Positions 625 to 19,199 of a DNA stretch of 19,346 bases are shown piece after piece; position 1 is the first letter of the stretch; each line of letters opens with the position of its first letter. This DNA is from an uncultured Bacteroidales bacterium (GTDB lineage: Bacteria > Bacteroidota > Bacteroidia > Bacteroidales > UBA932). The stretch covers positions 1-19,346 of the forward strand of contig CABTXO010000003.1 in NCBI GenBank assembly GCA_902488725.1, written 5' to 3'. Both the position numbers and the translations under genes were made by a program. The notes beneath the pieces are model-generated. The model ran no database searches and had not been told where the DNA came from. It was given only the letters and a program-made list of their open reading frames with translations.

Positions 625-649
625 ATTCACAATCAACACTCTGGCGGAA

Positions 650-677
650 CAAGGGTGGCACTTTGGTACCACCCTTG
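650..677 (-). repeat. Intercistronic palindrome, copy 1
   Basis: Arms CAAGGGTGGCAC (650-661) and GTACCACCCTTG (666-677) surround a 4-nt loop. The one unequal position becomes a G-U pair in minus-strand RNA, the direction of the flanking genes, so a 12-bp stem can form. It lies 6 nt after the susG stop and 25 nt before the GH53 start. A second copy lies at 19172-19199. No T-run follows, so it is not a standard intrinsic terminator. Confidence 0.85.
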
Positions 678-683
678 TCAGCA

Positions 684-2735
684 TTATAGGGAGAAAACGG
701 CAGAGGAGTTGGCTCCCAGCAGCAGCTGGAAGGAAGACTCCTTCTTCTCGACGACCACCGTCCCGAGCCGGGCGACCGGCTTGGAGAGGTCGTCATCGAA
801 ATTCAACGTCAGCACGGTCGTGCCGAAGTTGTGGGCGACCAGCATCTTGGAACCGTCGGGACCGGTCATGTACCAGCATGCCAGCGAGGTGAACCGGTTG
901 TTCGCCGCATTGTAGACCGGATGCTCGGACAGGGTTCCTTCCGCCAGCGCACGGTAGGCGTTGCGTAGGGTCGTGAAACGGCGGTAGGAGGTCAGGAGGG
1001 ATTCCTTGTCGGCGGACTGTGCTTCGACGGAAATGGCGGTGGTCAGCATGCCGCCGTCCACCTTGCCGCTCAGCTTTCCGTCTGCGATTTTTCCCGTTTT
1101 GGTCCACTTGATCGGCGTACGGACATATTCATCCCCGTTGGCTTTCGTGCCCCAGTAGCCGAGTTCCTCGCCCTGGTAGATGTACGGCTCGCCCGGAGCA
1201 GTCATCAGGACGGCGGCGGCCTGCTTCATCCGGGGAAGGCTCCTGCCCAGGTCGGAGGCCGCGCGGTCTTCGTCGTGGTTCGTCAGCTTGGTGGCTTCGA
1301 TGGCATTCGCGCGATAGGGCTTGTAGAGGGCTTCATAACTGAGGAGATTCTTTGCGAAAGAACTGCCCTTGCCATTGTTGAGGGCATCTTTCAGCCGCCA
1401 CCAGAAGGAGAATTCGAAGAAGGCGGGCAGCCCTTTGTAGTAGGGCGCCACATCGCGGGCTTCGGAAAATTGCTCCCCGACCATGTAGATGTCGCTGCGG
1501 GAAACGGAAACTGGGTGACTGACTGACTGATAGGTCTGGTTGCAGCGGTCATACCATTTCTTCAGGAAGGTCGGATTTTCGTCCGAGGACGCATTGTGGT
1601 AGATGTGCTTGACGGCATCCAGGCGGAATCCGTCCACGCCCATCTTCAGCCACTTGTCCGCTGAGGAGGCAAGGGCCTTGAAGGCATGGGAGGTTTCGGA
1701 AGTGGAGGCTGCCCCGTAGTTCCAGTCCACGAACCAGTCCGTCCAGAAATGGGAATGGAACATCTCCGGCTTGCCGAAGGTGATGTCCTTGGCTTCGGAA
1801 CTGTTCAGGGGCTTGGCGGTCCCCAGGGTGATCAGCTGGTTGCCCGTCGAAGCGCCCCACTTGGTCCCGGCATCCCAGCTTGTCGCAGAGGTGCGGATCA
1901 GGAAGCCCCAGTCCGTGTCCAAGTCGACCGTGATGTCGAAATAGTTGGCATTGGCCGGGTCCTGGTAGAAGCGGAAGAGTTTGTCCGCTCCGAAATACAG
2001 GTATTTCTGAACGGCGGTGGAAGGGTTGGTCACCTGTGCGGAGCCCTTCCCGACCGTCACCGTGATGCGCGGAGCGTTGGGATTGGTCCAGTCCAGATGG
2101 AATTTGTACAGTCCCTTCGCGCCGAGTCCCGGACCGCCCGGCACCGTGAACCACTGTCCTGCGTCGTAACCCGTCTTCTCGATCATCGGGAATTTCCCGG
2201 CGGCGATGTCTGCGGCCGGATCCGTACTGAACAGGAAGCAGTCCCGGTAGGGGCTGGCGGTGTTCTTCGCCGCATCCTGGAACCAGGGATGCTCACGGCC
2301 GGCATGGTTGAGCACATAGTCCAGATAGATCCGGATTCCCTTCGCATGGGCGGCGGAAATGAGGGCCGAGAGGTCCGCATCCGTCCCGTACTGCGGATTC
2401 ACGGCCGTGTAGTCCGTGACATCGTAACCGTGATAGGACATGGCAGGGTGGATGGGAGAGAGCCAGAACCCGGTCACCCCGAGCGCATCCAGGTAATCCA
2501 GATGGTCCTGAATACCCTTGAAGTCGCCGATCCCGTCGCCGTTGCTGTCTGCGAAGGAATAGACCAGCAGCTGGTAGGTGATGTCGGCACGCTTGGTTCC
2601 GTCCCATTCGACTTCTGAAGGTACGGTGATGTTTGTGTTCTCCTCTCCCCCGTTGACAGGATTGTCCTTGCGGCAGGAATAGGTCAGGACCAGCATCGGG
2701 AGGACGACCAGCAGGATGTATCTGAGGCTTCGCAT
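684..2735 (-). CDS. susG: SusG-like outer-membrane alpha-amylase (GH13 with CBM58-like insertion)
   Basis: This is a 683-residue surface alpha-amylase that hydrolyses internal alpha-1,4 bonds of starch. A lipoprotein signal ends at C21 (LTYSC). The GH13 barrel starts with YQLLVYSFADSNGDGIGD (54-71). Conserved region I is DYVLNH (139-144). The nucleophile is Asp373 in GFRLDAVKH, the acid Glu421 in MVGEQF, and the third carboxylate Asp488 in LTNHDED, so all catalytic residues are present. Residues about 205-325 interrupt domain B and correspond in position to the CBM58 starch-binding insertion of Bacteroides SusG, which has similar length (about 690 residues). It is the last clear starch gene of the operon, 70 nt after the SusE/F-like gene. 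A 12-bp hairpin and a -7-like box in that spacer suggest it may also be expressed separately. Confidence 0.93.
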   Translation of the reverse strand: MRSLRYILLVVLPMLVLTYSCRKDNPVNGGEENTNITVPSEVEWDGTKRADITYQLLVYSFADSNGDGIGDFKGIQDHLDYLDALGVTGFWLSPIHPAMSYHGYDVTDYTAVNPQYGTDADLSALISAAHAKGIRIYLDYVLNHAGREHPWFQDAAKNTASPYRDCFLFSTDPAADIAAGKFPMIEKTGYDAGQWFTVPGGPGLGAKGLYKFHLDWTNPNAPRITVTVGKGSAQVTNPSTAVQKYLYFGADKLFRFYQDPANANYFDITVDLDTDWGFLIRTSATSWDAGTKWGASTGNQLITLGTAKPLNSSEAKDITFGKPEMFHSHFWTDWFVDWNYGAASTSETSHAFKALASSADKWLKMGVDGFRLDAVKHIYHNASSDENPTFLKKWYDRCNQTYQSVSHPVSVSRSDIYMVGEQFSEARDVAPYYKGLPAFFEFSFWWRLKDALNNGKGSSFAKNLLSYEALYKPYRANAIEATKLTNHDEDRAASDLGRSLPRMKQAAAVLMTAPGEPYIYQGEELGYWGTKANGDEYVRTPIKWTKTGKIADGKLSGKVDGGMLTTAISVEAQSADKESLLTSYRRFTTLRNAYRALAEGTLSEHPVYNAANNRFTSLACWYMTGPDGSKMLVAHNFGTTVLTLNFDDDLSKPVARLGTVVVEKKESSFQLLLGANSSAVFSL

Positions 2736-2756
2736 ACGTGTTCGGTTTACATTTGC

Positions 2757-2786
2757 GGACTGAAGGCCGGTCAGGGCCTTCAGTCC
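2757..2786 (-). repeat. Perfect 12-bp stem-loop upstream of susG
   Basis: Arms GGACTGAAGGCC (2757-2768) and GGCCTTCAGTCC (2775-2786) are exact reverse complements around a 6-nt loop. The structure lies between the SusE/F-like stop (2806) and the susG start (2735), 21 nt before the ATG. It lacks a following T-run, so an mRNA stability or 5'-leader element is more likely than an intrinsic terminator. Confidence 0.85.
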
Positions 2787-2793
2787 AAAGATA
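2786..2793 (-). promoter_or_regulatory. Possible internal -7 box for susG
   Basis: Minus-strand TATCTTTG matches the Bacteroidota -7 consensus TAnnTTTG exactly and lies 50 nt before the susG start. No convincing -33 element is visible. If it is used, transcription would start within or just before the adjacent stem-loop, placing the hairpin at the mRNA 5' end. Confidence 0.35.
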
Positions 2794-2805
2794 GAAAAGT
2801 TTTTG

Positions 2806-4917
2806 CTATTGGATGCTGCCGGTTCCCGCGTTCGGATCCAGGGTCACGACCTGTCCGGCCGTGCACTTGACGCGCTGCTGGTCACCGCCGTTGCCGCGGT
2901 AGGCGATCTTGCCGTCCAGGACGATGAACTCACGGGTCCACCATTCGGAAGTGGCGATCCTGGATGCTACGAACATCCGGAGTTCTCCGTCGGCGGCAAT
3001 GGTGGCCTTGAGGGCCTTGCCTTCCGTTTTGAACAGGGCGGATTCTTTCTCGGCATCCCAGCCGCCAAAGCAGTCGCCCATGCCATAGACGCGGGCAGGC
3101 TCGACATGGAGGATGCTGTTCTTCAGGTCGATGTGGACCAGGTAGAAACCATCTTCCGCGACGGTGCAGTTGTTGTTGACCACCGTGAAGCCGTCGTTGG
3201 TGGTGAGGCTGTTGAAGTCGCCGTTCCAGGCCTTCACTGCGCAGAACTTGAAGCCCTTGCCCGCCGTGAAGTAGCGGACGGTCCAGAACTGGCCGGGGGC
3301 ATTGGCACCCCAATCCGGATTGTGGAGGACGGGCGTCATTTCAACCACACCGGGATCATTCCAATTCCAAGCGGAGAATTCATCACCGATCATGTAGAGT
3401 TGTGCCGGGAACTCCCTGTGCTCTTCAATCAGGATGGTCTTCGCGGCATAGTCGAAGGTCACATCGTAGTTGCCGGCCACGCCGACGGCGATGTTCTTGT
3501 CCTTCGCCTCGAAAGCGGTTCCGAGGGTCGGCTTGAAGACACCGTACGGATTGCCGGGATCGATCGTGCTCTGCGCATTCTCTTCCGGTCCGCCGTAGGC
3601 TTCGTCCCACTTGTGGTCCGCACGGATCTTGAACTCGTCACTGGCCGTCAGTGCGACGTTGCGCACCACCCAGATGTCTTCGCCCGCATTGGTCAGGTCG
3701 GTGTCGGTGTCCCAATTGGTGCCGCCGATGGTGCCGATGAGGGACCAGGCGGCCGGTTTCGGGTCGGGTTGTGCAGGAACGCCGGGATCCGTACCGTAAT
3801 CCTTTGCGTTCAGCGAGAAAGTGATGTTGTCAGGATCATTCATGTTCAGATAGATCCGGAAATTCCCCGCCGGGACCTTGATATCCTTCGAACTGCCATC
3901 GATGACAACCTTACCGGATGTGACAGGGGCCGTGGCGTCCGCTGCAAGTCCGATGGCAGGCGTAGCCCAGTTGCCGTCGAAACGGAACTTCATTTGACCT
4001 TCGACAAGGGTGACATCCGCAAAGAATTTCTGGGTAAGCGGATGATAGTTCATGACCACATCATTGTCCCAGGAGCCGATCGCACTGCCGACGATGCCGA
4101 TCTGGTCGAATGATTTGACAACCGTCAAGAACGATTTGGAGGTATTGAAGGTAAACAGGTAGAAATTCCTGGCATAGATCTTCATGTCTGAAGAAGAGCC
4201 GGCACAGACAAGCTGAGCGGTTGCAGCCTCGGGTTCCGGCACAACGTCACCGAATCCCCAGTTGGATTTGTCGTCCCACCCGTTTTCGGTTCCTCTGATC
4301 TTGAATCCATCGGCAGCCTTTCCATCAAACCCGATCAAGCCGCTGTAAGTCTCGCCGTCAGCATTGAAGTCGAAAAGTTCGGAAAGGTTCTCTCTGCCAT
4401 CTTTCCAGCCGTTGAAGTTTCCGATGACATAGATCATCGGATATTCACGCTCCGCTTCGACGGGAGTCACCTTCACAGTCGATCCGTTGGAATATTTCAC
4501 AGGAAAACCGTTGCCAATCATAGAGCCGACCAAGAAGGTTACCGGGGTCGTCTGACCGGCGGTAAGTCCGAGTCCGCCGGCATCGGCAGGTGTGATGAAC
4601 CGCTGGTTGAGCGCTTCCAATGTCTGCGTAGAAGACAGGGCGTTGATGCCCGTGTACAGCGGGATGGTGTCGTTTCCGACCACCGCTACAATCGAGTAGT
4701 TGACTTGGGTCTTGACACCGTAGTCGGCGGCAGACCAGTTGAACGTAACCTTGTCACCCATGTTCTCCGGTGTCACGGTAATCTCATCAGGGAGATTCTT
4801 GAGCACAGGTGCTACAATCTCGCCGGAAGGCAGGATCCTAGTGATGTCTTCTTTCACGCAGGCGGAAAACAGACCTAATGCCGCGGCAACTGCAATGATA
4901 TATTTCGTGATTTTCAT
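2806..4917 (-). CDS. SusE/SusF-like starch-binding outer-membrane lipoprotein with five modules
   Basis: 703 residues from the ATG at 4917, chosen over an upstream ATG at 4947 because it begins directly with a lipoprotein signal (MKITKYIIAV...FSAC, Cys20). Residues 30-150 resemble the SusE N-terminal Ig-like domain. Then come five repeated carbohydrate-binding-like units, four opening with an aromatic or hydrophobic strand, a glycine turn and a W: 158-268 (YVIGNFNGW), 271-370 (IVGSAIGSW), 390-498 (LIGTIGGTNW), 505-606 (YMIGDEFSAW) and 608-703 (YGMGDCFGGW). A proline-rich linker lies at 380-390. Known SusE carries two such modules and SusF three, so this protein holds the total in one chain. 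It would tether starch at the surface beside SusD and SusG. It starts 19 nt after susD, in the same operon. Confidence 0.85.
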   Translation of the reverse strand: MKITKYIIAVAAALGLFSACVKEDITRILPSGEIVAPVLKNLPDEITVTPENMGDKVTFNWSAADYGVKTQVNYSIVAVVGNDTIPLYTGINALSSTQTLEALNQRFITPADAGGLGLTAGQTTPVTFLVGSMIGNGFPVKYSNGSTVKVTPVEAEREYPMIYVIGNFNGWKDGRENLSELFDFNADGETYSGLIGFDGKAADGFKIRGTENGWDDKSNWGFGDVVPEPEAATAQLVCAGSSSDMKIYARNFYLFTFNTSKSFLTVVKSFDQIGIVGSAIGSWDNDVVMNYHPLTQKFFADVTLVEGQMKFRFDGNWATPAIGLAADATAPVTSGKVVIDGSSKDIKVPAGNFRIYLNMNDPDNITFSLNAKDYGTDPGVPAQPDPKPAAWSLIGTIGGTNWDTDTDLTNAGEDIWVVRNVALTASDEFKIRADHKWDEAYGGPEENAQSTIDPGNPYGVFKPTLGTAFEAKDKNIAVGVAGNYDVTFDYAAKTILIEEHREFPAQLYMIGDEFSAWNWNDPGVVEMTPVLHNPDWGANAPGQFWTVRYFTAGKGFKFCAVKAWNGDFNSLTTNDGFTVVNNNCTVAEDGFYLVHIDLKNSILHVEPARVYGMGDCFGGWDAEKESALFKTEGKALKATIAADGELRMFVASRIATSEWWTREFIVLDGKIAYRGNGGDQQRVKCTAGQVVTLDPNAGTGSIQ

Positions 4918-4936
4918 ATTGTGAATCTCTAAAATG

Positions 4937-6577
4937 TTAGGCGCCATAACCCGGATTTTGTACGAGCTCGGTATTGGAGGCCAATTCGGAAGCCGGAATG
5001 GCGAAGATGTTCAAATGCGCATCAAATCCTTGTCCGGCATAGGGACCGCCCTTGAAAGGCCAGAGGAAACTACCGGAATTGAACAACCCCCAACGGATCA
5101 GGTCCGTACGGCGATGCCCTTCCCAGAAGAGTTCGCGTGCGCGTTCCGCCACCAGGAAGTCCTTGGTGACAGTCGCAGGAGCTTCGATTCCGGCGCGATC
5201 GGCCAATATTTTCAAATACGGCAGGGCATCCGCCACATGATTGGTGTTCAGACATGCTTCCGCATATATCAGATAGATTTCGCCCAGACGGATCATCGGA
5301 AAATCGATGTCGCTGAAACCTTTGGTACCCGACATTTCAGCATATTCCTCTGCGGTCTTGTCGTGGGGAATGTTGTTGAACTTGAGTACGGACCAACCGT
5401 TCAGGAACACATCCATGGCATCCTTCATGGACTCCGTTCTGCCGCTGATGCGGAACAACTGCCCACGCTTATCCTTGCAGTCATAGGTGCCGGTCGAATA
5501 GTCCGGGTTGGCTACATCAAAAAACATTTGCGCAAACTCATAGGTGGTCCGGATGCCGCCCCAGCCGTTATTGACGCCGTTGATGTGCAACGGGGCATCT
5601 ACGTCAGCATTGATTGCGGCAAAATTCATGTAGGTGGAGCCGCCCCAAGACTGCGTGTCCTCGGCATCATACGGAAGCGCCCAAAGGAATTCTCCCCGCG
5701 CCGATGCGTTCTCACCGTTGTCGCCGCGGAATAGATCGGAATACACGGGGGAGGCTGCATATCCCAAGCCGAAGATCCGCTCGCAGGTCTGCTTGGCTTC
5801 ATTCCACATCGCAGTACCGGAATACACTTCTGCATTCAAATACAGACGGGCCAGCAGACCGAGCACGGACCCTTTATCCGCACGCGGATAGTTGGACTTC
5901 GCAGCAGGCATTGCGCTGCCGTCCCCAGCCAGTTCCTCCAGTTCCGAGACGCAGAACTTGAACACGTCTGCCCGTGCGGCCTGTTTGGGATTGATGCCGC
6001 CTCCGAAAGGAGAATCTTCCGTGGTGAAAGGCACATCTCCAAAGGTGTCCATGGCCATCCAGTAGAGATAGGCGCGCAGGAAGCGAACCTCGGCGCGGAA
6101 GCCGTCTATTTTGGAGGAAAGTTCAGCGTTAACGCCTCTGGCAGAAAGCTTGTCGGCCGAGGTCTGCCGGAGATATTCATTGGCGAACGCAATCCCTTGC
6201 ATGGTGCGGACATAGATCGCATACGTGGCATCGTTGTCGGCATCAGACCAGGTGTTGGTGTTCACAGCGTACACCCATGGGTCGTTGGACCAGGCGCATT
6301 TCCCTTCGTCCGTGGACATTTCATTGACGGACCAGTATGCCCGTACGAGTTCGGAAGCACCTCCGTCCGAGAGTTGAAGATCCGTCAAATCGCAGGAAAC
6401 AAACTGGAAGTAGATTCTGGACAGTCCAGACACATATCCAGCTTCATCCGTGCCGTAGACGGTCTCCGAAACGGCATCATAGGGATTGAGCGGAACTGTG
6501 TTGAGATCTTTGACACAAGCCGTAGCAACAGAGACCCCGGCAAAAAGTATCGCAATTGTTCTGATAAGGTTTTTCAT
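4937..6577 (-). CDS. susD: SusD/RagB-family nutrient-binding outer-membrane lipoprotein
   Basis: 546 residues from the ATG at 6577. An upstream in-frame ATG at 6637 is rejected because the internal start begins a clean lipoprotein signal (MKNLIRTIAILFAGVSVATAC, Cys21) and has a strong ribosome-binding site. SusD landmarks are present: RAEVRFLRAYLYWMAMDTFGDVP in the TPR region, YPRADKGSVLGLLARLYL, DFPMIRLGEIYLIYAEACLN, and ERARELFWEGHRRTDLIRW near the C-terminus. SusD proteins form the lid over the SusC barrel and bind the oligosaccharide. The gene follows SusC by 11 nt, the usual pairing. The neighbouring amylase and SusE/F-like gene point to a starch or maltooligosaccharide ligand. Confidence 0.93.
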   Translation of the reverse strand: MKNLIRTIAILFAGVSVATACVKDLNTVPLNPYDAVSETVYGTDEAGYVSGLSRIYFQFVSCDLTDLQLSDGGASELVRAYWSVNEMSTDEGKCAWSNDPWVYAVNTNTWSDADNDATYAIYVRTMQGIAFANEYLRQTSADKLSARGVNAELSSKIDGFRAEVRFLRAYLYWMAMDTFGDVPFTTEDSPFGGGINPKQAARADVFKFCVSELEELAGDGSAMPAAKSNYPRADKGSVLGLLARLYLNAEVYSGTAMWNEAKQTCERIFGLGYAASPVYSDLFRGDNGENASARGEFLWALPYDAEDTQSWGGSTYMNFAAINADVDAPLHINGVNNGWGGIRTTYEFAQMFFDVANPDYSTGTYDCKDKRGQLFRISGRTESMKDAMDVFLNGWSVLKFNNIPHDKTAEEYAEMSGTKGFSDIDFPMIRLGEIYLIYAEACLNTNHVADALPYLKILADRAGIEAPATVTKDFLVAERARELFWEGHRRTDLIRWGLFNSGSFLWPFKGGPYAGQGFDAHLNIFAIPASELASNTELVQNPGYGA

Positions 6578-6584
6578 GATCGTT

Positions 6585-6590
6585 CCTCCT
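6585..6590 (-). promoter_or_regulatory. Strong Shine-Dalgarno of susD
   Basis: Minus-strand AGGAGG lies 7 nt before the susD ATG and overlaps the SusC TAG stop. Bacteroidota genes usually lack strong Shine-Dalgarno sites, so this one supports the chosen start and suggests coupled or boosted SusD translation. Confidence 0.7.
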
Positions 6591-9500
6591 AAAAGTTGAA
6601 GTTGACGCGGAAAGAATATGTCCGGGGACGCGGCCAAATCGAACCATCGATACCGTTCACTCCCGGAAGTTCGGGATCGATTCCACTATATTGCGTCAGC
6701 ACGAACAAATTCTGCGCAGTGAATCCGAGACGCAGGTTGGCGTTCTTCCAGTTGCCGATGCTGCGGAAGGTGTAGCCCAAGTTGACATCATCCAGTCGAA
6801 AGAAAGAGGCATTCTCAAGGAACACGTCTGAATAGTACTGTTCGGTGCTGTTGGCCAGTTCAAAGCCGAATTTCTTGACAGACTCCAGACAATTGGGCAG
6901 AGAACCCACGTTCAGGTCGACAAAAGTCGAGGAATTCGCCCCCTGGAGATCGTTGAATACGTAGTTTCCCACAGAGCCATGGCCGTTCAGCCCGAAATCC
7001 CAATTCTTGTAGGAGAGTTTCAGATGCAAGCCGAAGAAGAAATCAGGATTCGGACTCTTGCCTGTCATGTACCGGTCGGCCTGGGAAATGACCCCGTCTT
7101 CATTGAGATCGACGAACGCATTCTGGATCGGTGCTCCGTCCGCATCGTAGACTTGCTTGAAAAGGCAGAATGTGTAAGGAGCCCATCCCACCATCTGACG
7201 CGCAATGTTGTTGCCGGTTCCCCGGGAAATGCCGGAATTGGCCGCCTGAACATAATAGTTCGGGTCATCGGTGTTGTTCAGTTTCGTAAACTCCGTCTGC
7301 TGGAAAGTCCCGTTCATCCCGAGCGCAAGCGACATGTCCTGTGTCTCGACCAGGATGGTGTTGAGAGAAAATTCCACACCTTGATTGCGCATGGAACCGA
7401 TGTTGGTGAGGACTGTATTGCCAAAGTTTGCTCCCATCGGGGTAATGACGCTGTTCAGGAGATCATCCGTATCCCTGCGATAGAGATCAATTGTCCCCGT
7501 CAACCGGTCACCGAAAAGACCCCAGATAGACCGGTATTGTAGGTCGTGGTCGTTTCCCAACGAATGTCGGGATCATAAGCACCCGGAGACAAGTAGTACA
7601 CAAGTCCGGCCGACCCCATGTTGAAACGATGGTAAGGGTCCGTCGAAGTCGTGTAGCGCGCCAGATACGGATAACTGGCTCCGATTTCCTGCTGACCGGT
7701 TTTACCCCAGCTCAATCGGAGTTTCAAAGCGGAAAGGCCACTGACAGATTTCAGGAAGCCTTCTTCTTCGATGTTCCAAGCGAAAGCAGCGGAAGGGAAC
7801 AATCCCCACCGGGTCTTGGGAGAGAAGCGGGAAGAGGCATCGTCACGAAGCGTAAAAGTAAAGAGATACTTGCTCGCAATCGAATAGTTCAGACGGCCGT
7901 AGAAAGAAACAAGATAGGTCTCCCATTTGTTGAACGGATACCGTGAATCCGCGGTTTCTCCCGGGTTCAACTTGATGTCATCTGTGCCATTGAAATAGGA
8001 GATGGAGCGGTCCTGCCCGTAAAAATGCTGCCAGGAATATCCCGCCATGGCATCTACACGGTGAATTCCGAATTCCTTGTTGAAATTGGCGTACAGTTCC
8101 AGCACTTGGTTGCTGCGCAGGTTGGACCATTTCGAATATTGTCCGATTCTCGGGTTTTCCGTGTCTTGAAAAGCCTGGAAGGAACCGGGGTTAACACCTT
8201 TATTGCCATCAGAATAAGATATGTCCGTCCCAAGGTTCAGGTTGATGCGGAGGGCCTCGAACCCATGAATCTTGTAGTCGAACTGTGCGTTGCCGATGAA
8301 ACGCTTGGTATCTCCGTAATTTACTGCATCAAAGAGTTGGGAAAGCGGGCCGACACCTGCCAGATTGTTGGGAATGAATTCATCCCCACGACCGGTACCA
8401 TAGTTCCAGAACCCGTTGGTCGTCTTGCTGTCAACCGAACCGTCTGCATTTCTCCAGTACGGATCCACCGTCGGATTGTAGAATGCGGCATTTCCCACGG
8501 CCCCGCCGTCCGCCCAAACGGAATGGGTATAGACGCCTTTCGCGTTCAGATTGAGCGTCAAATGTTCATCCAGGAACTTGGGGTTGACACTCAAGTCAAT
8601 CGTTCCCCTGTCATAGCGGGAGGTCTTGAGGGTTCCCTGCTGACCGGTGTAGCCGAAGGAAGCACGATACGGCATTTTGTTCTTGACATTGCCGTACACA
8701 CTGATGTTGTGGTCGTGGGAAATGGCGGTGCGGAAGATCAACTTCTGCCAGTCCGTTTCTGCGTTTCCCATCAGGGCGCGCATGGCATCGCCCCGAGCTG
8801 TACCGACCGGGTAGATTTCGTCAACGTAAGCCCTGTATGCGGACGGCTGCATCGAAGGAATTCTTTTGGTGTTCTGCTGGACACTCACACTTCCATTGTA
8901 AGAGACCTGCGGGCGATTGCCGGTTCCCTTCTTGGTTGTAATGATGATGACGCCATTGGATGCACGCGACCCGTAGATCGCAGCAGAGGAGGCATCCTTC
9001 AGCACAGTGAAGCTCTCGATGTCGTTCGGATTGAGTGACTCCAGCGGATTGGACATGCCGGCTCCACCGTCTGAGGCGATCGGAACACCGTCGATGACGA
9101 CGAGCGGATCATTGGAAGCATTCAAGGAGGCGGAACCACGGAGGCGCAGCGTAGAACCGGAACCCGGACCGCCATCGCCGGGAATCACCTGAAGACCTGC
9201 GACTTTTCCTTTCAGCATGTCTTGCGTGGATACGACGGCACCCCGGTTCAATTCCTCAGCCTTGATCGCAGTAATGGAACCGGTCATGTCTTCCTTCTTC
9301 ACGGTGCCGTAGCCGATGACCACGACGTCGGCAAGCATCTGGGTGTCTTCCGCCAACGTGATGCTGGCCGGGACGGCGGATGCCCGGAAGGTTTGCGAAA
9401 CGTACCCGATGCAGCTGACTTCCACCATCGCGTCGGGGCTGGAAACGGTGAGGATGTAGTCTCCGTCAATTCCGGTGGAGGTACCGTTCGTGGTTCCCTG

Positions 9501-11071: not shown

Positions 11072-11104
11072 CGTGAATCGGTATAATAATTAAAATAATG
11101 AAGG

Positions 11105-11155: not shown

Positions 11156-11169
11156 TTAATTTAGTCCCC

Positions 11170-12543
11170 ATGAAGAGGTTCTCCGACGCGCTGATCGTCC
11201 ATGGTTTCGCCCTTCTGCACGGAACGCTTGCCGTCCTGTGCAGGGTTTGGGGTGTCAGCGACGAACTCATCCTCACCCTGCTGACCATGGCGCTTTCCCT
11301 GGTACTCTGCCTGAAATACCGGAAAGGCGTGGAATTCACGGCCATTTCCATCATCCTCGTGAACGTGCTCGGCTACCTGCTGGGCAACGGGATTCTGCCG
11401 CTGGTGAACATGCTGGTCAGTCATCCCCTCTTCTCTCCGGCCATTTCGACCTTCCTGACGACCGAACTGATGGGTTGGGGGCTGGTGTATTTCATTCGGG
11501 TCTACACCGACCGCAACGGAGAACCCGTGAAATCGGCCGGCGAGACCCGCTGGCTGGTGGTCGCGATTGCGGCGGTGCTTTTCGCCCGCATCCTGATTTT
11601 CGTCATCTTCGGCTCGGATGCCTTTTCAGGGGGTTCCATCGGGGAGTCGATTTCGGCTTTCGGCCGGAACACCGTCCTGATGTTCTCGATGATCGGGCTG
11701 TCGATCCTCTTCCTCGCCTACTACCGGAAGAACAGCCACACCTTGACCACGACGGACAAATTCCTGTTCACGATTCTGTTCATCGTGGTGGTGTCGATGC
11801 TCGCGGCCTTCGTCGTGGCCATCGGCATTCCCTTCCACCTGCCCCTGCGGCTCACGCCGGACCGTCTGGTCGAACTCTTCCTGGTCGCCCTGATCTTCGA
11901 GATGATGATTTATTCCGTCACCTACATGATCGACTATGCCGTGTCCGCACGCCGCAACGCCGAAGTGGAACGGGACCGGGCGAACCTCGCCAAGTTCCAG
12001 TACCTCAACCTCAAGCAGCAGGTCAATCCACACTTCCTCTTCAATTCGCTGAATATTCTGGATGCCCTCGTGCTGGACGGGAAGGACGGAGAGGCCAGCA
12101 CCTATATTCATAAACTCGCCGGCATCTACCGGTACATGCTCAAAACCGAAAAGGAACCGGTGGTGACCCTCCGGGACGAACTGACCTATGTGGGGATGTA
12201 CACCGACCTGCTGAAGGTCCGTTTCCAGTCGGGATTCCAGGTCACGGTGGATGTCCCCGAAACGGACTTGTCCCGCCATGTGGTCCCCTGCTCGGTCCAG
12301 CTGCTGATTGAAAACGCGACGAAGCACAATGCGGTGACGCTGGAGAAGCCCCTGTCCATCCGCATCCAGTCCGACGGGGAATCCCTGACGGTCACCAACA
12401 ACCTCATTCCAAGGGTCACAAAGCCTGCTTCCAGCGGGCTCGGCCTGAAATACATCCGCCAGCAGTATCTGGATCGGGGCGGCCGGACGATCGATGTCCG
12501 GGAAACCGATTCGGAGTACCTGGTTCAACTGCCCCTGCTCTGA
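11170..12543 (+). CDS. LytS/YehU-type sensor histidine kinase
   Basis: 457 residues. The N-terminal half holds about six hydrophobic segments (roughly residues 8-250) without a recognised ligand domain. After a short coiled linker (SARRNAEVERDRANLAKFQYLNL) comes the His_kinase domain of the LytS family: QQVNPHFLFNSLN with phospho-acceptor His288, the N-box LLIENATKHNAV (Asn382), and the G-box SSGLGLKYI (about 421-429). It should autophosphorylate and pass phosphate to the LytTR regulator that starts 1 nt after its stop. The signal is unknown. Its place opposite a sus operon suggests that it reports carbohydrate or envelope state. The start is the ATG at 11170, right after an A/T-rich stretch containing TAATTTAG, a near -7 match that would give a very short leader. 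Confidence 0.92.
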   Translation: MKRFSDALIVHGFALLHGTLAVLCRVWGVSDELILTLLTMALSLVLCLKYRKGVEFTAISIILVNVLGYLLGNGILPLVNMLVSHPLFSPAISTFLTTELMGWGLVYFIRVYTDRNGEPVKSAGETRWLVVAIAAVLFARILIFVIFGSDAFSGGSIGESISAFGRNTVLMFSMIGLSILFLAYYRKNSHTLTTTDKFLFTILFIVVVSMLAAFVVAIGIPFHLPLRLTPDRLVELFLVALIFEMMIYSVTYMIDYAVSARRNAEVERDRANLAKFQYLNLKQQVNPHFLFNSLNILDALVLDGKDGEASTYIHKLAGIYRYMLKTEKEPVVTLRDELTYVGMYTDLLKVRFQSGFQVTVDVPETDLSRHVVPCSVQLLIENATKHNAVTLEKPLSIRIQSDGESLTVTNNLIPRVTKPASSGLGLKYIRQQYLDRGGRTIDVRETDSEYLVQLPLL

Positions 12544-12544
12544 T

Positions 12545-13318
12545 ATGAAAGTGTTGATCATCGAAGACGAACTGATGGCCCGCGACAGCCTGAAAAAGAT
12601 GCTGGCGACCCATTTCCCGGACCTCGAAGTGGTCGGGGAATGCGGCTCCGTGAAAGAGTCCGTCGCCTGGCTCTCAGACCCCGCCCACCAGGCAGACGCG
12701 ATATTCATGGACGTGGAGTTGTCCGACGGGGAATGCTTCGAAATCTTCCGGCGGGTACCGGTCCATGCGCATGTGGTGATGACAACGGCCTACGACGGTT
12801 ATGCGATCAAGGCCTTCGAAGCAGGTTCGGTCGATTATCTGCTGAAACCCATCGACCCGATGGACCTGAACCGGGCGGTGGAACGCTGCCGGAAGAGCAG
12901 CCGGGAACTGGATGTGGATGCCCTGCTGGGGGCCTTGTCGCACAATCCGTCCGGGCCGGTGTTCAAAGAACGCTTCCTGGTGCATTTCAACGACCGGATC
13001 GTGCCGGTGAAGACGGCGGACGCGGCACTCTTCTTCTCCGAAGACAAGGCGAACCACGTGGTCACCCGGGACGGCACCGCCTACATCGTGGACGCCTCCC
13101 TGGACACCATCCTCGCGGAGCTGGACCCCGAGCGCTTCTTCAAGATTTCCCGGAGCTGCATCGTCGCCAAGGATGCGGTGGACAGCATCACCAAACTGCT
13201 GGGAGGCAGGCTGCGCATCTCCCCTGCCCTCAAGCTGTCCCGAAACATTCAGCCCTCCCCCGACCTGACGGTCAGCCGTTCCCGTGCGGACGAGTTCCTG
13301 GAATGGCTGGTGCGGTAG
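12545..13318 (+). CDS. LytTR-family response regulator
   Basis: 257 residues. The start is the ATG at 12545, where the receiver begins with MKVLIIEDE; in-frame sequence upstream is kinase coding DNA. Receiver domain 1-115: acidic pocket Glu7/Asp8, phospho-acceptor Asp56 in FMDVELSDG, Thr80/81, and Lys101 in YLLKP. Residues about 140-255 form the LytTR DNA-binding domain ([47 protein letters not shown]). LytTR proteins bind pairs of 9-bp direct half-sites about 21 bp apart, and such sites lie in the region upstream of its kinase partner, pointing at the MFS-sus operon. Its last 47 bases overlap the 3' end of the convergent RNA methyltransferase gene. Confidence 0.94.
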   Translation: MKVLIIEDELMARDSLKKMLATHFPDLEVVGECGSVKESVAWLSDPAHQADAIFMDVELSDGECFEIFRRVPVHAHVVMTTAYDGYAIKAFEAGSVDYLLKPIDPMDLNRAVERCRKSSRELDVDALLGALSHNPSGPVFKERFLVHFNDRIVPVKTADAALFFSEDKANHVVTRDGTAYIVDASLDTILAELDPERFFKISRSCIVAKDAVDSITKLLGGRLRISPALKLSRNIQPSPDLTVSRSRADEFLEWLVR

Positions 13319-13859
13319 ACCGGAACTGCCAGAGCACGACGCCGACGCTCACGGAGACGTTCAGAGAATGTTTGGTCCCGAACTGAGGTATCTCCAGCGA
13401 GAAATCCGAAGCGTCCACCACTTCCTGGGCCACTCCGTCCACTTCGTTGCCGAAGATCAAGGCATATTTTCTCCCCGTCCCGTCCGCAGGGTTCCACGGC
13501 TCCGGCCGGAATTTTTCCAGCGACACGGCCCGGACGGTCTGTTCCACGCTCACGATGGTGAACCCCTGGGCGCGCAGGGCTTGGACGGCCTCCAAGGTGC
13601 TTTCAGCATATTCCCAGGCGACACTTTCCTCGGCGCCGAGGGCGGTCTTGCGGATTTCGGCGGACGGAGGCACGGCGCAGATGCCGCAGAGGAAGACCCG
13701 GTCCACCTGGAAGGCATCGCAGGTCCGGAAGGCGGAGCCGACGTTGTAGGCGCTGCGCACGTTGTCGAGTACGACGGCGATGCCGGATTCGGGAAGCACG
13801 CGGTATTCCTCTGCGGTTACCCGGCCCAGTTCGAGGTTCAATAATTTGCGGTCTTTCAT
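13272..13859 (-). CDS. TrmH/SpoU-family RNA 2'-O-methyltransferase
   Basis: 195 residues from the ATG at 13859 ([19 protein letters not shown]). An upstream ATG at 13871 is less likely because it lies only 8 nt downstream of the -7 box. The three SPOUT motifs are visible: [18 protein letters not shown] (motif 1), [12 protein letters not shown] (motif 2) and [21 protein letters not shown] (motif 3, the knot that holds S-adenosylmethionine). It should methylate a ribose in tRNA or rRNA; the target cannot be read from the sequence. There is no separate N-terminal substrate-binding domain, as in short TrmH-like proteins. The C-terminal tail of about 16 residues is encoded antisense to the end of the LytTR gene. 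Confidence 0.9.
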
Positions 13860-13879
13860 CGCTTTTCGCATTTCTGCGT

Positions 13880-13887
13880 CAAATTTA
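13880..13887 (-). promoter_or_regulatory. -7 box for the RNA methyltransferase gene
   Basis: Minus-strand TAAATTTG is an exact TAnnTTTG match, 20 nt before the ATG at 13859. The resulting leader would be very short. It is back to back with the glyA promoter. Confidence 0.55.
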
Positions 13888-13908
13888 GCAAAAATGGTTT
13901 TTTAATCT

Positions 13909-13916
13909 TATATTTG
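13909..13916 (+). promoter_or_regulatory. -7 box for glyA
   Basis: TATATTTG is an exact TAnnTTTG match 45 nt before the glyA ATG. An imperfect -33-like TTTAGC lies at 13884-13889, about 19 bp upstream, the usual spacing in this phylum. Confidence 0.6.
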
Positions 13917-13961
13917 AGGACCGAATCGGCCGATTACCGGAAACCCATAAATATTAACGAT

Positions 13962-15290
13962 ATGAAACAAGATCTTCAGATTTTTGATCTGATTAAGAAA
14001 GAAAAAGAACGCCAGTCTTCCGGACTGGAATTGATTGCCTCGGAAAACTATGTCTCCGACCAGGTGCTGGAAGCCATGGGTTCCATCTGCACCAACAAGT
14101 ATGCGGAAGGATACCCGGGCAAGCGGTACTACGGCGGCTGCGAAGTGGTGGACCAGATCGAGCAGCTGGCCATCGACCGTCTCTGCAAATTGTACGATGC
14201 CGAATATGCCAACGTGCAGCCGCACTCCGGCGCCCAGGCCAACCTGGCCGTCGAGATGGCCTGCCTGAAGCCCGGCGACACCTTCATGGGACTCGACCTT
14301 TCCCAGGGCGGTCACCTGACCCACGGCTCCCCCGTGAATGCGTCCGGCATCCTCTACAACGCCGTCGCCTACGGACTGAACCCCGAAACCGGCACCATCG
14401 ACTACGACAAGATGGAGCAGACCGCGCTGGAATGCAAGCCGAAGCTGATCATCGGAGGCGCTTCCGCCTATTCCCGCGAATGGGACTACGAGCGCATGCG
14501 CGCCATCGCGGACAAGGTCGGCGCCATCCTCTTGATCGACATGGCCCACACGGCGGGTCTCATCGCCGCCCGGCTGCTGAAGAACCCGGTGAAATATGCC
14601 CACATCGTCACGTCCACGACCCACAAGACCCTGCGCGGACCGCGCGGCGGCATCATCCTGATGGGCAAGGATTTCGACAACCCCTGGGGTCTCAAGACGC
14701 CGAAGGGCGAAATCAAGAAGATGAGCGCGATCCTCAACTCCAGCGTGTTCCCCGGCGTGCAGGGCGGCCCCCTCGAGCATGTGATCGCATCCAAGGCCGT
14801 GGCCTTCTACGAGGCCTCCCAGCCTGAATTCGTCGCCTACCAGAAGCAGGTGATGGCCAACGCACGGGCCATGGCGAAGGAATTCGTCGCAAGGGGCTAC
14901 AAGGTCGTTTCCGGCGGTACCGACAATCACCTGATGCTGATCGACCTCCGCACCAAATTCCCCGAAGTGACCGGCAGAATGGCGGAGAAGGAACTAGAGA
15001 ATGCGGCCATCACGGTCAACAAGAACATGGTTCCGTTCGACAGCCGTTCCCCGTTCAAAACCTCCGGTCTGCGGGTCGGCACGCCGGCCGTCACCTCCCG
15101 CGGCTTCGTGGAGAAGGACATGGTGGACATGGTCGAACTGATCGACACGGTGCTTTCTGCCGTCGCCACCCACGCCGACTACGTGAACGGGGTGTCCGAA
15201 GAGGGCAAGGAAGCCTACCAGGCCGTCCTGGAGGACGTCCGCAAGAAGGTCCACAACATGACCGCCGGCCGTCCCCTCAACAAGTACTAG
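13962..15290 (+). CDS. glyA: Serine hydroxymethyltransferase
   Basis: 442 residues starting at [18 protein letters not shown], downstream of the -7 box. It is a PLP enzyme that converts serine and tetrahydrofolate to glycine and 5,10-methylene-tetrahydrofolate in the cytoplasm. Family text is complete: [14 protein letters not shown] (19-32), [16 protein letters not shown] (45-59), [21 protein letters not shown] (193-203), and [14 protein letters not shown] with the PLP lysine Lys222. The C-terminal [15 protein letters not shown] is also present. It is a single gene with its own promoter; the next gene, tpiA, faces it across a 379-base structured gap. Confidence 0.98.
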
Positions 15291-15669
15291 CTGATTTCCG
15301 ACTGCACAATGACAAGAAGGTGAATTCTAAGTTGAAACCGAAATTGACTGACGAATCTTTCACCTGAAGACGTACCTGCGCAGCAGTATGGCGCGATGCA
15401 TCTGCTGCCCTCGACGAAGAATATGCTTCCTGTGCCAGAACTGGCACAGGAAGCATATTCCGATCCGGCAGATGCTTCATACACCAAGCCCCGGACCAGT
15501 CGGGGCAGACAACTACTTTTGCAACTGATCCTTCAAGACCGCCGGACTTGTCCGGCCCCTCACGATTTGTGCAAGGCCCGCAGCCGCAGGCTTCGGGAAG
15601 ATGCCCCCGGGGGCAACGGGGGATATGAAAGCGACGGAGCCGCTGAAGTCGTTCCAAGCGGCGAAGCGC
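15291..15669. other. glyA-tpiA intergenic region rich in stem-loops
   Basis: No convincing gene lies in these 379 bases between convergent genes. It holds at least five inverted repeats besides the tpiA end hairpin: outer arms 15398-15405/15468-15475; a perfect 20-bp pair 15419-15438/15441-15460; GCCCCG/CGGGGC at 15488-15493/15501-15506; GCCGGA/TCCGGC at 15541-15546/15551-15556; 15577-15585/15589-15597 with one mismatch; and the self-complementary GCCCCCGGGGGC at 15603-15614. A lone TACTTTTG (-7-like, plus strand) is at 15514-15521. This could be 3'-end structure, an RNA gene or a dispersed repeat element. Confidence 0.6.
15398..15475. repeat. Nested inverted repeat with a perfect 20-bp stem
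   Basis: The inner arms 15419-15438 (GAATATGCTTCCTGTGCCAG) and 15441-15460 are exact reverse complements separated by only AA. The outer arms GCATCTGC (15398-15405) and GCAGATGC (15468-15475) also pair, leaving an internal loop of 13 and 7 nt. No T-run flanks either side, so it does not look like an ordinary intrinsic terminator. Confidence 0.9.
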
Positions 15670-15677
15670 TTAGAACG
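15650..15677 (-). terminator. Stem-loop over the tpiA stop codon
   Basis: Arms CGTTCCAAGCG (15650-15660) and CGCTTAGAACG (15667-15677) form an 11-bp stem. The single unequal position is a G-U pair only in minus-strand RNA, so the structure belongs to the tpiA transcript. It includes the TAA stop (15670-15672) and the last codons. No T-tract follows, so it may protect the 3' end rather than terminate transcription by itself. Confidence 0.5.
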
Positions 15678-16425
15678 ACAGCGCGATTGCGATGAAGTCC
15701 TCCGCCTTGAGAGAGGCGCCGCCAATGAGGCCGCCGTCGATGTCGGGCTGGGCGAACAGTTCCTTCGCATTGGAAGGCTTGCAGCTGCCGCCGTAGAGGA
15801 TGGTCGTGTCTTCGGCAACCCGGGCGCCGAACTTGTCGGCAAGCACCTTCCGGATGCACGCATGGATCTCCTCGGCCTGCTCCGACGTGGCCGTCTTGCC
15901 GGTACCGATGGCCCAGACCGGCTCGTAGGCGACCACGATCTTGGCCATGTCCGCCGCCGTGAACTGGTAGAGCACATGCTGGATCTGCTCCGTCACCACT
16001 TCGAAATGCTTCCCGGCCTCCCGCTGCTCCAGGTTCTCCCCGACGCAGAGGATGACCCCGAGGCCTTCCGCCAAAGCGAGTTTGACCTTCTCGACCAGTT
16101 TCGCATCGGTCTCACCGTAGTACTGCCGACGCTCGGAATGACCGAGAATCGTCCACTTGCAGCCCACGGACGCCAGCATGTTCGCTGCAACTTCACCCGT
16201 GAACGCACCTTTCACGTGGTCGGCGCAGTTCTGGGCGGACAGTTCCACCTTGGAGCCCTTCAGGACCTCGGCGACAGTCGCGAGGTGGGTGAAAGGGGTC
16301 GCCACGATCAGCCCTACGTCATCAGATGTCCTTGCAGATTGAGCCTCGACGGCCTTCGCCAGTTCAACGCCTTCCTGGAGGGTCGTGTTCATCTTCCAGT
16401 TTCCGGCAACGATTTTCTTTCTCAT
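15670..16425 (-). CDS. tpiA: Triosephosphate isomerase
   Basis: 251 residues, normal length. It interconverts dihydroxyacetone phosphate and glyceraldehyde 3-phosphate in glycolysis and gluconeogenesis. Active-site residues are all present: Lys11 in GNWKMN, His96 in ILGHSERR and the catalytic base Glu168 in [11 protein letters not shown]. The phosphate-gripping loop follows, and [10 protein letters not shown] and [11 protein letters not shown] near the C-terminus complete the phosphate site. It is transcribed alone on the minus strand, divergent from tyrS, with a -7 box about 40 nt upstream. A stem-loop overlaps its stop codon. Confidence 0.98.
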
Positions 16426-16465
16426 GTTTTCCGTTTGTTATGACTATAAATTCGTTTACAAACTG

Positions 16466-16473
16466 CAAATTTA
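16466..16473 (-). promoter_or_regulatory. -7 box for tpiA
   Basis: Minus-strand TAAATTTG, an exact TAnnTTTG match, 40 nt before the tpiA ATG in an A/T-rich divergent region. No clear -33 element is seen. Confidence 0.5.
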
Positions 16474-16485
16474 AGTAAAATTAAG

Positions 16486-16503
16486 TAAATTTGGTTAAAT
16501 TTG
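16486..16503 (+). promoter_or_regulatory. Two tandem -7 boxes for tyrS
   Basis: TAAATTTG occurs twice, at 16486-16493 and 16496-16503, 10 bp apart. Both match TAnnTTTG and lie 24-34 nt before the tyrS ATG at 16528. They may give two transcription starts. The placement argues against the in-frame ATG-like start at 16501. Confidence 0.5.
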
Positions 16504-16527
16504 CACGTGTACAACAAGAAAGATGCG

Positions 16528-17820
16528 ATGAAGAATTTCGTTGAAGAATTGAAGTGGAGAGGCATGATCCAGGACATCATGCCCGGAACGGAAGAGAAAC
16601 TCAAGGAAGGCCCGCAGGCAGCCTACGTGGGCATCGACCCCACGGCGGACTCCCTGCACATCGGACATCTGGTCAGCATCATGATCCTCAAGCACTTCCA
16701 GGAGTGCGGCAACAAGCCCTTCGCCCTCGTGGGAGGTGCGACCGGCATGATCGGCGACCCTTCCATGAAATCTGCCGAGCGGAACCTGCTGGATGCGGAG
16801 ACCCTGCAGCACAACATCGCCTGCATCAAGGCCCAGCTGGCCAAGATCCTGGACTTCGATTCCGACGCGCCCAACAAGGCGGAACTGGTGAACAACTACG
16901 ACTGGATGAAGGGATATTCCTTCCTGAATTTCATCCGCGACGTGGGCAAGCACATCACGGTCAACTACATGATGGCCAAGGACTCCGTCAAGAAGCGGCT
17001 CTCCTCCGAATCCCGCGAAGGCATGTCCTTCACGGAATTCAGCTACCAGCTCCTGCAGGGTTACGACTACCTCTGGCTCTACGAGCACAAGAACGTGCGC
17101 CTGCAGCTGGGCGGCAGCGACCAGTGGGGCAACATCACCACGGGCGTGGAACTGATCCGGCGGATGCTCGGCAAGACCGACGCATTCGCGATGACCACTC
17201 CCCTGATCAAGAAGGCGGACGGCACCAAATTCGGCAAGACCGAGAAGGGCAACATCTGGCTCGACCCCGAAAAGACGACCCCTTACGAATTCTACCAGTT
17301 CTGGCTGAATGTCAGCGACGAAGACGCCGAGCGGTACATCAAGATTTTCACCCTCCTCGACCAGCCGGCCATCGAGGCCGCCGTCGCGGAGCACCGGCAG
17401 GACCCGGGCCGCAGGGCCCTCCAGCAGTTGCTCGCCAAGGAAATCACCTGCCTCATCCACGGGGTGGAGGAATATGACAACGCGGTCGCGGCGTCTCGGA
17501 TGCTGTTCGGAAACTCGACTTCCGAAGCCCTCCGCAAACTGGACGAAAAGACCTTCCTGGCCGTTTTCGGGGGCGTCCCGACCTTCGATGTCCCGGCCGC
17601 AAAACTGCCCTGCGGCATCCAGGATTTCCTGGCTGTCGAGACGCAGGTCTTCCCTTCCAAGGGCGAATGCCGGAAGATGATTCTTGGAGGCGGCGTGAGC
17701 CTCGACAAAGACAAGGTGACCGACCCCGACTACCAGGTCTCCGAAAAGGACATCCTGGACGGGAAATACATCCTTGCCCAGCGCGGCAAGAAGAACTACT
17801 ACATCATCAACATCGTATAG
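16528..17820 (+). CDS. tyrS: Tyrosyl-tRNA synthetase
   Basis: 430 residues from the ATG at 16528 ([12 protein letters not shown]), the usual TyrS start; an in-frame start at 16501 falls inside the promoter boxes. It is a class I synthetase that charges tRNA-Tyr. The HIGH motif is LHIGH in [14 protein letters not shown]. The tyrosine site includes YQLLQGYD and GGSDQWGNI. The KMSKS-type loop is [14 protein letters not shown], with KFGKT in its place as in many bacterial TyrS. The C-terminal about 65 residues form an S4 RNA-binding domain ([19 protein letters not shown]). rbfA follows 26 nt later on the same strand. Confidence 0.98.
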
Positions 17821-17846
17821 CACCACAAAACCAATATTCGGAAATC

Positions 17847-18194
17847 ATGGAAAAACAAGCGAGTACGCGGCAGCTGAAAGTTGCACGGGAAATTCAGAAA
17901 GACATGGCGGAGATCCTCCGGCAGAAAGGCATGGCGGCATTCGACGGCGCGCTGGTCACCGTGAGCGAAGTCCGGGTCAGTCCGGACCTGTCGCTGGCGA
18001 AGACCTACGTCAGCATCTTCCCGTCCGCCAAGGCCGAGGCCGTCATGCAGATCCTCAACGACAACCTCAAGACCTACCGCGGTGAACTGGGACGTCTCGT
18101 AGCCAAGCAGCTGCGCATCGTTCCCGACATCGTCTTCTACCTCGACACCAGCCTCGATCACGCCGAGCACATCGACGAACTCCTGAAAAAATAA
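17847..18194 (+). CDS. rbfA: Ribosome-binding factor A
   Basis: 115 residues from the ATG at 17847 (MEKQASTRQLKVAREIQKDMAEIL). An open frame upstream overlaps tyrS and is not part of the protein. RbfA is a small KH-fold protein that binds the 30S subunit and helps mature the 5' end of 16S rRNA. Family text: TVSEVRVSPDLSLAKTYVSIFPS in the centre and LRIVPDIVFYLDTSLDHAEHIDELL at the end. The gene sits 26 nt after tyrS and 12 nt before the FecCD-type permease, so the three are probably transcribed together. Confidence 0.95.
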   Translation: MEKQASTRQLKVAREIQKDMAEILRQKGMAAFDGALVTVSEVRVSPDLSLAKTYVSIFPSAKAEAVMQILNDNLKTYRGELGRLVAKQLRIVPDIVFYLDTSLDHAEHIDELLKK

Positions 18195-18206
18195 GCGGCG
18201 ACCGAC

Positions 18207-19163
18207 ATGCCGAAAGCCACCCTCCGGCGGATTCTGCTGCTCTTCCTGGCCGTGCTGCTGCTGGCGGGGGCGGACCTGCTGGCGGGGGATGCGGGATTCA
18301 GCCGGCCGGAGGCCGTCATATTCCTGAAACTGCGGCTGCCGCGCATGCTGACGGCACTGACGGGAGGGGCTTCCCTGGCGCTGGCAGGCCTCCAGATGCA
18401 GAGCGTGTTCCGGAATCCCCTCGCCGATCCCCACATCCTGGGCGTCAGCGCCGGGGCCGGGACCGGGGCCGCGGTGGCGACCCTGCTGCTCGGCAGCCTG
18501 GCGGGTCTGTCCGGCCTTTTCGCCGGGCTGACTCTCGTTTCCGCCGCCTTCCTCGGCGCCCTGCTCTCCACCCTCCTGATCCTCGCCGTCTCCGCCCGCA
18601 TCCGGAACGCGACCACCCTGCTCATCTTCGGCGTCATGCTCGGCTTCGTGTTCAGCGCCTTCACCTCCGTGCTGGAGTACTCCGCCGGCAAGGATGCCCT
18701 GAAGCTGTTCTACAGCTGGTCGGCCGGCAGCTTCACCGGCAACCGACCGGGTGAAGTCGCCCTTCTCGCCGGTCTGCTGCTGCTCGGCAGCCTGCTGGCC
18801 GTCAGCCAGCACCGCCGGCTCGACCTGCTGCTGTTCGGAGATGAATATGCCGCCCTGTCGGGAGCCCGCCCTGCGCGGATCCGGAGCCGGGTGCTCCTCG
18901 GGGCCTGCCTGCTGACCGGCGGCGTGACGGCCTTCTGCGGTCCGCTGGGCTTCGTCGGCATCGTCTCCCCGCACATCGCCCGCGTCTGGCTGGGCACCGC
19001 GGTCCACCGGACTGCGATTCCCGCCTCCCTGCTCGTCGGCGCCTCGCTGGGATTGCTTGCGGACCTGCTTTCGCAAGCCTTTCCCGCCCCCCTGCCGGTC
19101 GGGAGCACGCTCGCCCTCATCGGCATCCCGATCATCCTGCTGATCCTGGTCCGCCGTACCTGA
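18207..19163 (+). CDS. FecCD/BtuC-family ABC transporter permease
   Basis: 318 residues with about 8-9 hydrophobic segments, normal for the family. The FecCD signature is clear: LRLPRMLTALTGGASLALAGLQMQSVFRNPLADPHILGVSAGAGTGAA (about 43-90), and near the C-terminus GPLGFVGIVSPHIARVWLG, the region that contacts the ATPase. It forms the inner-membrane channel for an iron-siderophore, heme or cobalamin complex; the ligand cannot be chosen from this gene. It is followed 60 nt later by the matching ATPase. No substrate-binding protein is within the window. GC content is visibly higher than in the sus genes. Confidence 0.93.
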   Translation: MPKATLRRILLLFLAVLLLAGADLLAGDAGFSRPEAVIFLKLRLPRMLTALTGGASLALAGLQMQSVFRNPLADPHILGVSAGAGTGAAVATLLLGSLAGLSGLFAGLTLVSAAFLGALLSTLLILAVSARIRNATTLLIFGVMLGFVFSAFTSVLEYSAGKDALKLFYSWSAGSFTGNRPGEVALLAGLLLLGSLLAVSQHRRLDLLLFGDEYAALSGARPARIRSRVLLGACLLTGGVTAFCGPLGFVGIVSPHIARVWLGTAVHRTAIPASLLVGASLGLLADLLSQAFPAPLPVGSTLALIGIPIILLILVRRT

Positions 19164-19171
19164 CCCAACCG

Positions 19172-19199
19172 CAAGGGTGGCACCCAAGTACCACCCTTA
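19172..19199 (+). repeat. Intercistronic palindrome, copy 2
   Basis: Arms CAAGGGTGGCAC (19172-19183) and GTACCACCCTTA (19188-19199) around the loop CCAA: 11 bases pair apart from one C-A position, and the outermost base is also unpaired. The left arm is identical to that of copy 1 (650-677) and the right arm differs at one base. It lies 8 nt after the permease stop and 24 nt before the ATPase start. Confidence 0.85.

Follow-up and report, generated by a model that had tools for sequence, protein, structure and literature searches.

What places the same palindrome at the same position in two unrelated intergenic spacers? In a 19,346-nt stretch of DNA from an uncultured Bacteroidales bacterium (contig CABTXO010000003.1, positions 1 to 19,346; the whole stretch is called the window here), an earlier note had described two such palindromes and offered three options: an intra-operon regulatory hairpin, a protein-binding palindrome or a mobile repeat resembling the repetitive extragenic palindromes (REPs). 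We found that a close relative, genome G477, carries a family of 12 copies, two of which enclose a transposase gene, and this backs the third option. With a probability of roughly 0.8, the element is an untagged REP-like hairpin that is spread in trans via single-stranded DNA by an HUH/tyrosine transposase of the REP-associated tyrosine transposase (RAYT, TnpA-REP) type, and that survives mainly behind stop codons. The two window copies are:

650..677, core 651-676, no strand: palindrome copy 1, in the spacer between the SusG and GH53 (glycoside hydrolase family 53) genes, with the plus-strand loop TTTG
19172..19199, core 19173-19198, no strand: palindrome copy 2, in the spacer between the genes of a FecC-type permease and an ATP-binding cassette (ABC) ATPase, with the plus-strand loop CCAA

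The window was searched with AAGGGTGGYACN4GTRCCACCCTT, with up to 3 mismatches allowed. The two cores are exact matches, and 200 dinucleotide shuffles of the window gave none, so the palindromes are far from chance. The loops and the spacer lengths of 59 and 60 nt proved to be as first described, and the 26-nt core lies 7 nt after the stop codon and 26 nt before the ATG in copy 1, with 9 and 25 nt in copy 2, consistent with the 6/8 and 25/24 nt given earlier for the 28-nt form. Both copies are located between co-directional genes, on the minus strand for copy 1 and on the plus strand for copy 2. The earlier account of the arms held in part: the copies share them, reading AAGGGTGGCAC/GTACCACCCTT on the plus strand, but the outermost C..G pair (650/677) is confined to copy 1, copy 2 having a non-pairing C/A at 19172/19199. 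In addition, both copies have a mismatch at pair 9 (C/A on the plus strand, T/G on the minus strand), and thus neither window palindrome is perfect.

To place the window among sequenced genomes, its serine hydroxymethyltransferase (SHMT) was used as the kinship marker. Of the 249 genomes searched, all from the family of G013, 29 passed E 1e-230, and G477 ranked first with 90% identity. FecC failed as a kinship marker, its best identity being 45% among the matches listed (295 genomes). The window genes from SusG to FecC match G477 contig C29 in two regions, with two blocks of ~80% DNA identity, which makes G477 a close relative of the window. In G477, 12 palindromes of the form GGTGGNACN4GTNCCACC were found; when three extra arm bases were fixed on each side and 3 mismatches were allowed, there were still 12, all exact, and the control gave 0. 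The family searches left pair 9 and the 4-nt centre free, fixed the remaining positions and allowed up to 3 mismatches. Across 180 genomes of the genus, matches occurred only in G477 (12) and G600 (1, mismatched). With the window arms and at most 2 mismatches, only G477 (11), G600 (1) and G576 (1) had matches among 249 genomes of the family, and 393 genomes of the order yielded two genomes with one off-pattern match each; a scan of IMG/VR for the palindrome gave 0 matches. When genome_contigs was scanned for the pattern with the loop set to 3-8 nt, at least 117 stretches matched, most of them 25-mers from Streptomyces or terminator-like stems from scattered sources, and no close relative of the window was seen among the matches listed. 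The genome-wide family that had been suspected is therefore present in G477, with 12 dispersed copies, and the window itself shows two in 19 kb. As a separate observation, at least 78 copies of AAGGGTGGCAC-N3-GTGCCACCCTT were seen, mostly in Streptomyces, and 75 of those listed have GCTCANNTGAGC within 80 nt; this palindrome, with its other loop length, is presumably unrelated to that of the window.

The G477 copies were studied in a 768-kb sample of the ~2.6-Mb genome that was picked to contain all 12. The palindrome is the sole hairpin sequence with more than two copies in this sample (11 of 111 hairpins, a fraction that is no density, since the sample was picked for the copies). All 12 G477 copies and both window copies lie between called genes, and the 26-nt core with a stem of up to 13 bp or more falls within the 20-40 nt of short extragenic palindromes of the REP type. 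In the sample, neither the AAAGGTGG[CT]AC arms nor their complements are found outside the palindromes, unlike a DNA-uptake-type sequence, the arm of which would be abundant singly; one single half copy, AAAGGTGGAAC, adjoins the transposase gene. Eight of the 14 copies in the window and G477 have perfect arms, and the six imperfect ones all differ at pair 9 alone. At pair 3, the two window copies have G-C and the 12 G477 copies all have A-T. Four of the G477 copies form two doublets of 43-bp spacing, one lies 44 bp from the half copy and seven are single; the palindromes are too symmetrical for inversion within doublets to be visible. Near 72845-72885 of G477 contig C26, GCTAACGCGAACAAA occurs twice, over the fabG stop codon and running into the palindrome; this duplication is possibly a trace of how that copy arose.

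The earlier note had advised looking for a RAYT/IS200-type transposase gene, and a gene of the RAYT type was found in G477. On contig C29, palindromes at 28278 and 29393 enclose a gene at 28444-29367 of the REP-transposase type. The gene sits below the PF01797 threshold and was found instead as the gene between two copies; seven PF01797 matches in G477 had no palindrome copy adjoining them. Its product of ~306 aa carries motifs mostly reading DH.H and Y..NN and a long helical C-terminal part. The fold predicted for a homolog 98% identical to it has the HUH/Y1 core and resembles a solved RAYT structure, the 4er8 alignment covering residues 33-279 of the predicted model. Genes were called with a simple hexamer script, and two calls neighbouring the enzyme region are weak (scores 16 and 19). 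A public protein, P0122, is 77% identical to the G477 enzyme and is a candidate for the window species' own enzyme; a search of IMG/VR with P0122 gave no relative. The sequence CCCT[CG]AC precedes the arms at six of the 28 feet, including all four beside the transposase gene; the mobile unit may extend beyond the 26-nt core:

G477 C1:77670-77679; C4:124819-124828; both feet of C29:28278-28303 and 29393-29418: CCCT[CG]AC feet

We compared the placement of the copies with the intergenic background of the same G477 sample, counting 10 sites (the 12 copies minus the second copy of each doublet). Eight of the 10 sites start at most 40 nt from a stop codon, where 18% would be expected (p = 4e-5); three of the 10 lie between convergent genes and none in a divergent spacer. 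The proposed link to gene ends thus stands on the stop side, and the start-side geometry found no support. In particular, the GTTGA before both ATGs appears incidental: of the 507 well-scored called starts in the sample, 5 have [AG]TTGA at a distance of 7 or 8 nt upstream, and the G477 FecC-ATPase junction, without a palindrome, has ATTGA at the corresponding place, so the motif belongs at most to the leader of the downstream gene. That junction was aligned by eye, as were the other spacers. In G477 it consists of the stop codon, 25 nt and the start codon; in the window, the stop codon is followed by 35 nt with the palindrome, then by 25 nt and the start codon. The additional segment is:

19164..19198, plus strand: 35 nt extra relative to the orthologous G477 spacer (by-eye alignment)

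In G511 and G600, the FecC and ATPase genes overlap and leave no spacer. The purD-folD spacer holds the palindrome in G477 and a different repeat in G511, and no copy was found in G511 behind nagB and fabG, where the sequence after those genes differs. Another short repeat, GCTTCGCTCAGAATGAC, was seen 8 times in 638 kb of G511, 3 times in 102 kb of G600 and 0 times in 768 kb of G477; one copy is the following:

G511 C2 near 28700 (L256): GCTTCGCTCAGAATGAC copy in the purD-folD spacer

The position just after stop codons, in both window copies as in most G477 sites, is also what would be expected of an intra-operon RNA hairpin selected for its effect on neighbouring genes by processing, stabilising or attenuating the transcript, and the predicted window transcripts do fold, with energies of -25.1 and -13.9 kcal/mol (z -5.8 and -3.2, respectively). 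However, the changes at pair 9 give C.A in three and U.G in two of the five informative copies on the transcript strand, and therefore show no bias towards kept RNA pairing. Since the palindrome is also missing at the orthologous FecC-ATPase junction, and two copies enclose a REP-type transposase gene, we regard selection for such a hairpin as improbable, although a copy may still have a regulatory effect.

An operator, that is, a DNA palindrome with a fixed 4-nt centre for a dimeric regulator, would account for arms that are invariant within each genome save pair 9 around a free 4-nt centre (14 copies, found with patterns that preset the 4-nt centre) and for two doublets of equal spacing. The sites argue against it, in that they follow stop codons, include convergent spacers and avoid divergent promoter regions; moreover, no regulon was seen by eye among the flanking genes, and the one orthologous junction that was fully compared has no palindrome. 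An operator is therefore very unlikely. An intrinsic, possibly bidirectional, terminator of locally favoured sequence has the lowest probability of the three, little different from that of an operator. Unrelated bacteria show like stems between A- and T-runs, and the convergent sites in G477 would suit it, but the window stems lack a T-tract (on the transcript strand they are followed by GTTCC and ATCCA), and a terminator scan of the window alone lists neither copy. Termination ~25 nt before the next co-directional start would also cut off the partner gene, and common 11-nt arms at 12 places are unexpected of independent terminators. None of RNA regulation, an operator or a terminator accounts for the transposase gene between two copies.

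We therefore favour the mobile repeat. A RAYT-type enzyme would recognise the single-stranded hairpin, cut beside it and rejoin it elsewhere; acting in trans, it would seed copies across the genome, and these would persist chiefly in spacers just after stop codons. Transcribed copies would form hairpins, perhaps affecting mRNA as a side effect. In this scheme the G477 enzyme probably cuts and pastes this hairpin, the window species probably has its own enzyme matched to CAAGGGTGG arms, and the preference for the post-stop position probably reflects tolerated insertion and not function. Pair 9, the third pair from the loop, tolerates change and may be one of the features by which the hairpin is recognised, which we offer as a suggestion; according to PMC8266576, mismatches and bulges in the stem matter for E. 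coli REPs and are contacted in ISDra2, and the E. coli enzyme cleaves and recombines its cognate REPs in vitro.

The comparison with known systems is consistent with a variant of the REP/RAYT type. REPs carrying GTAG and their doublets (REPINs) are likewise dispersed extragenic palindromes of 20-40 nt, found mainly after genes, with copies flanking HUH transposase genes (PMC3733652, PMC3116915, PMC8266576). The 43-bp doublets and the 44-bp half copy recall the REP doublets described in PMC3116915, though 7 of the 12 copies are single. In contrast to these REPs, the present family has no GT[AG]G foot, just 12 copies and none with 1-3 mismatches. A REP group with perfect palindromes is mentioned in PMC8266576; since the palindrome here is symmetrical, the choice of strand must come from elsewhere. 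For Bacteroidetes TnpA-Y1 subclass 2.6, Quentin et al. 2018 (PMC6006769) describe untagged, atypical hairpins beside the genes; shared with our case are a TnpA-Y1 gene, flanking hairpins without GT[AG]G and copies elsewhere in a member of the Bacteroidetes. Subclass 2.6 differs in its length of 179 (read as aa), its motifs NH[LIV]H and YIH[QN]NP and its structures, which are called weaker; here the enzyme has ~306 aa, DH.H and Y..NN, and the palindromes are strong and nearly perfect. Y..NN resembles subclasses 2.4 (YIxNNP) and 2.6, and the HUH motif and the length do not. The IS200/IS605 elements share the HUH/Y1 core fold and hairpin ends, but the enzyme here is about twice as long and 10 of the 12 hairpins lie away from the gene whose ends they resemble. 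Hence the system probably works like a REP/RAYT system, as a divergent variant. In the accessible text of open-licence papers, nothing on REPs or RAYTs in this group was found beyond the Bacteroidetes subclasses of PMC6006769.

Other members of the enzyme family were used to ask whether enzyme and palindrome go together. Among 30 homolog loci, out of a longer list with matches in 44 of 248 genomes, 12 have an identical palindrome on both flanks within 350 nt, compared to 43 of 870 cross-pairings, and several of the 20 cross-pairings listed join look-alike palindromes. Many paralogs differ in their flanking palindrome. In G568, a TCCCTTGCG...CGCAAGGGA pair at C57:21065 and 22287 encloses a gene at 21268-22164, and 14 exact copies and one single-mismatch copy of this palindrome are listed, the flanking pair counted. 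With up to 3 mismatches, the TCCCTTGCG palindrome has 18 matches each in G568 and G608, and the reversed control has 1 in each; of the 19 genomes searched, those outside these two gave 0-8 matches, which are chance-like or of the related TCGCTTGCG type. Palindromes that flank an enzyme gene and also have copies dispersed through the genome thus occur at least twice in this bacterial family.

Several results weigh against the mobile repeat as we describe it. The further copies and the transposase gene were found in G477, the window's own genome being represented here by the window alone, and because the arms differ at pair 3, the link between the two consists of the shared core and kinship. Twelve copies are few for a REP family, and the lack of copies with 1-3 mismatches, apart from the half copy, is unusual for a REP. 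None of the 14 copies has the canonical GT[AG]G at a distance of up to 10 nt from either foot (7.5% of places picked at random in the G477 sample have it, and the arms themselves contain GTGG), and for this reason we do not file the family as a GTAG REP. The enzyme scores 12.9 bits for Y1_Tnp (cut-off 23) and 27.2 bits for the REP_Tyr_transpos equivalog (NCBIfam NF047646, cut-off 80); it is therefore claimed as a divergent relative and not as an NF047646 equivalog. A deletion in G477 could also be the cause of the difference at the FecC-ATPase junction. Finally, 18 of the 30 homolog loci lack a matching palindrome pair, and the G477 paralogs L173 and L176 have their own pairs, yet no second repeated hairpin family was found in the 768 kb.

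A broader proposal, which we put forward as a speculation that may well prove wrong, is that the REP transposases of this Bacteroidales family, with their long and helical C-terminal domain, form a branch of their own. Each paralog would recognise an untagged palindrome specific to it by the arms and by a 'hinge' pair close to the loop where change is tolerated, without a GT[AG]G guide. Copies would either be young or be kept identical by an active process, and arm pairs would change in concert between sister species; given such a concerted change (pair 3, G-C versus A-T), one could trace how the specificities of enzyme and repeat shift together. One enzyme, 12 hairpins with the same arms, a palindrome-free orthologous junction and sister enzymes with other palindromes make a clean small set in which the code for recognising untagged symmetrical palindromes is testable. 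REPs and their enzymes have been characterised biochemically in Proteobacteria (PMC8266576). The case also cautions against assuming that hairpins which match between operon spacers of uncultured Bacteroidales are regulatory.

The genes around the two window copies are as follows:

684..2735, minus strand: SusG-like alpha-amylase, stop codon TAA at 684-686, upstream of copy 1
1..624, minus strand: GH53 (incomplete), start codon ATG at 622-624, downstream of copy 1
18207..19163, plus strand: FecCD-family permease, stop codon TGA at 19161-19163, upstream of copy 2
19224..19346, plus strand: ABC ATPase (incomplete), Walker A GPNGSGKTT read from the sequence, downstream of copy 2

An alternative ATG in the open GH53 frame overlaps the SusG stop codon; the putative start at 622-624 was picked by a lipoprotein-like signal sequence. 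The GH53 match stops near runs of C and G at 120-150. A T-box likeness of AAGGGTGGTAC was dropped as a lead after an Rfam covariance scan of the window gave no match at gathering score to a T-box or any other family. After a 721-aa SusC frame (7500-9665) comes a second frame of 323 aa (6589-7560) that overlaps it; the arrangement looks like a gene split in two, by a sequence error or a real break. On one G477 contig, the counterparts of window segments 8926-15291 and 15672-19153 are ~90 kb apart, and a perfect 20-bp inverted repeat with a 2-nt loop lies at 15419-15460, where this synteny breaks; the break is either a rearrangement or a chimeric assembly join.
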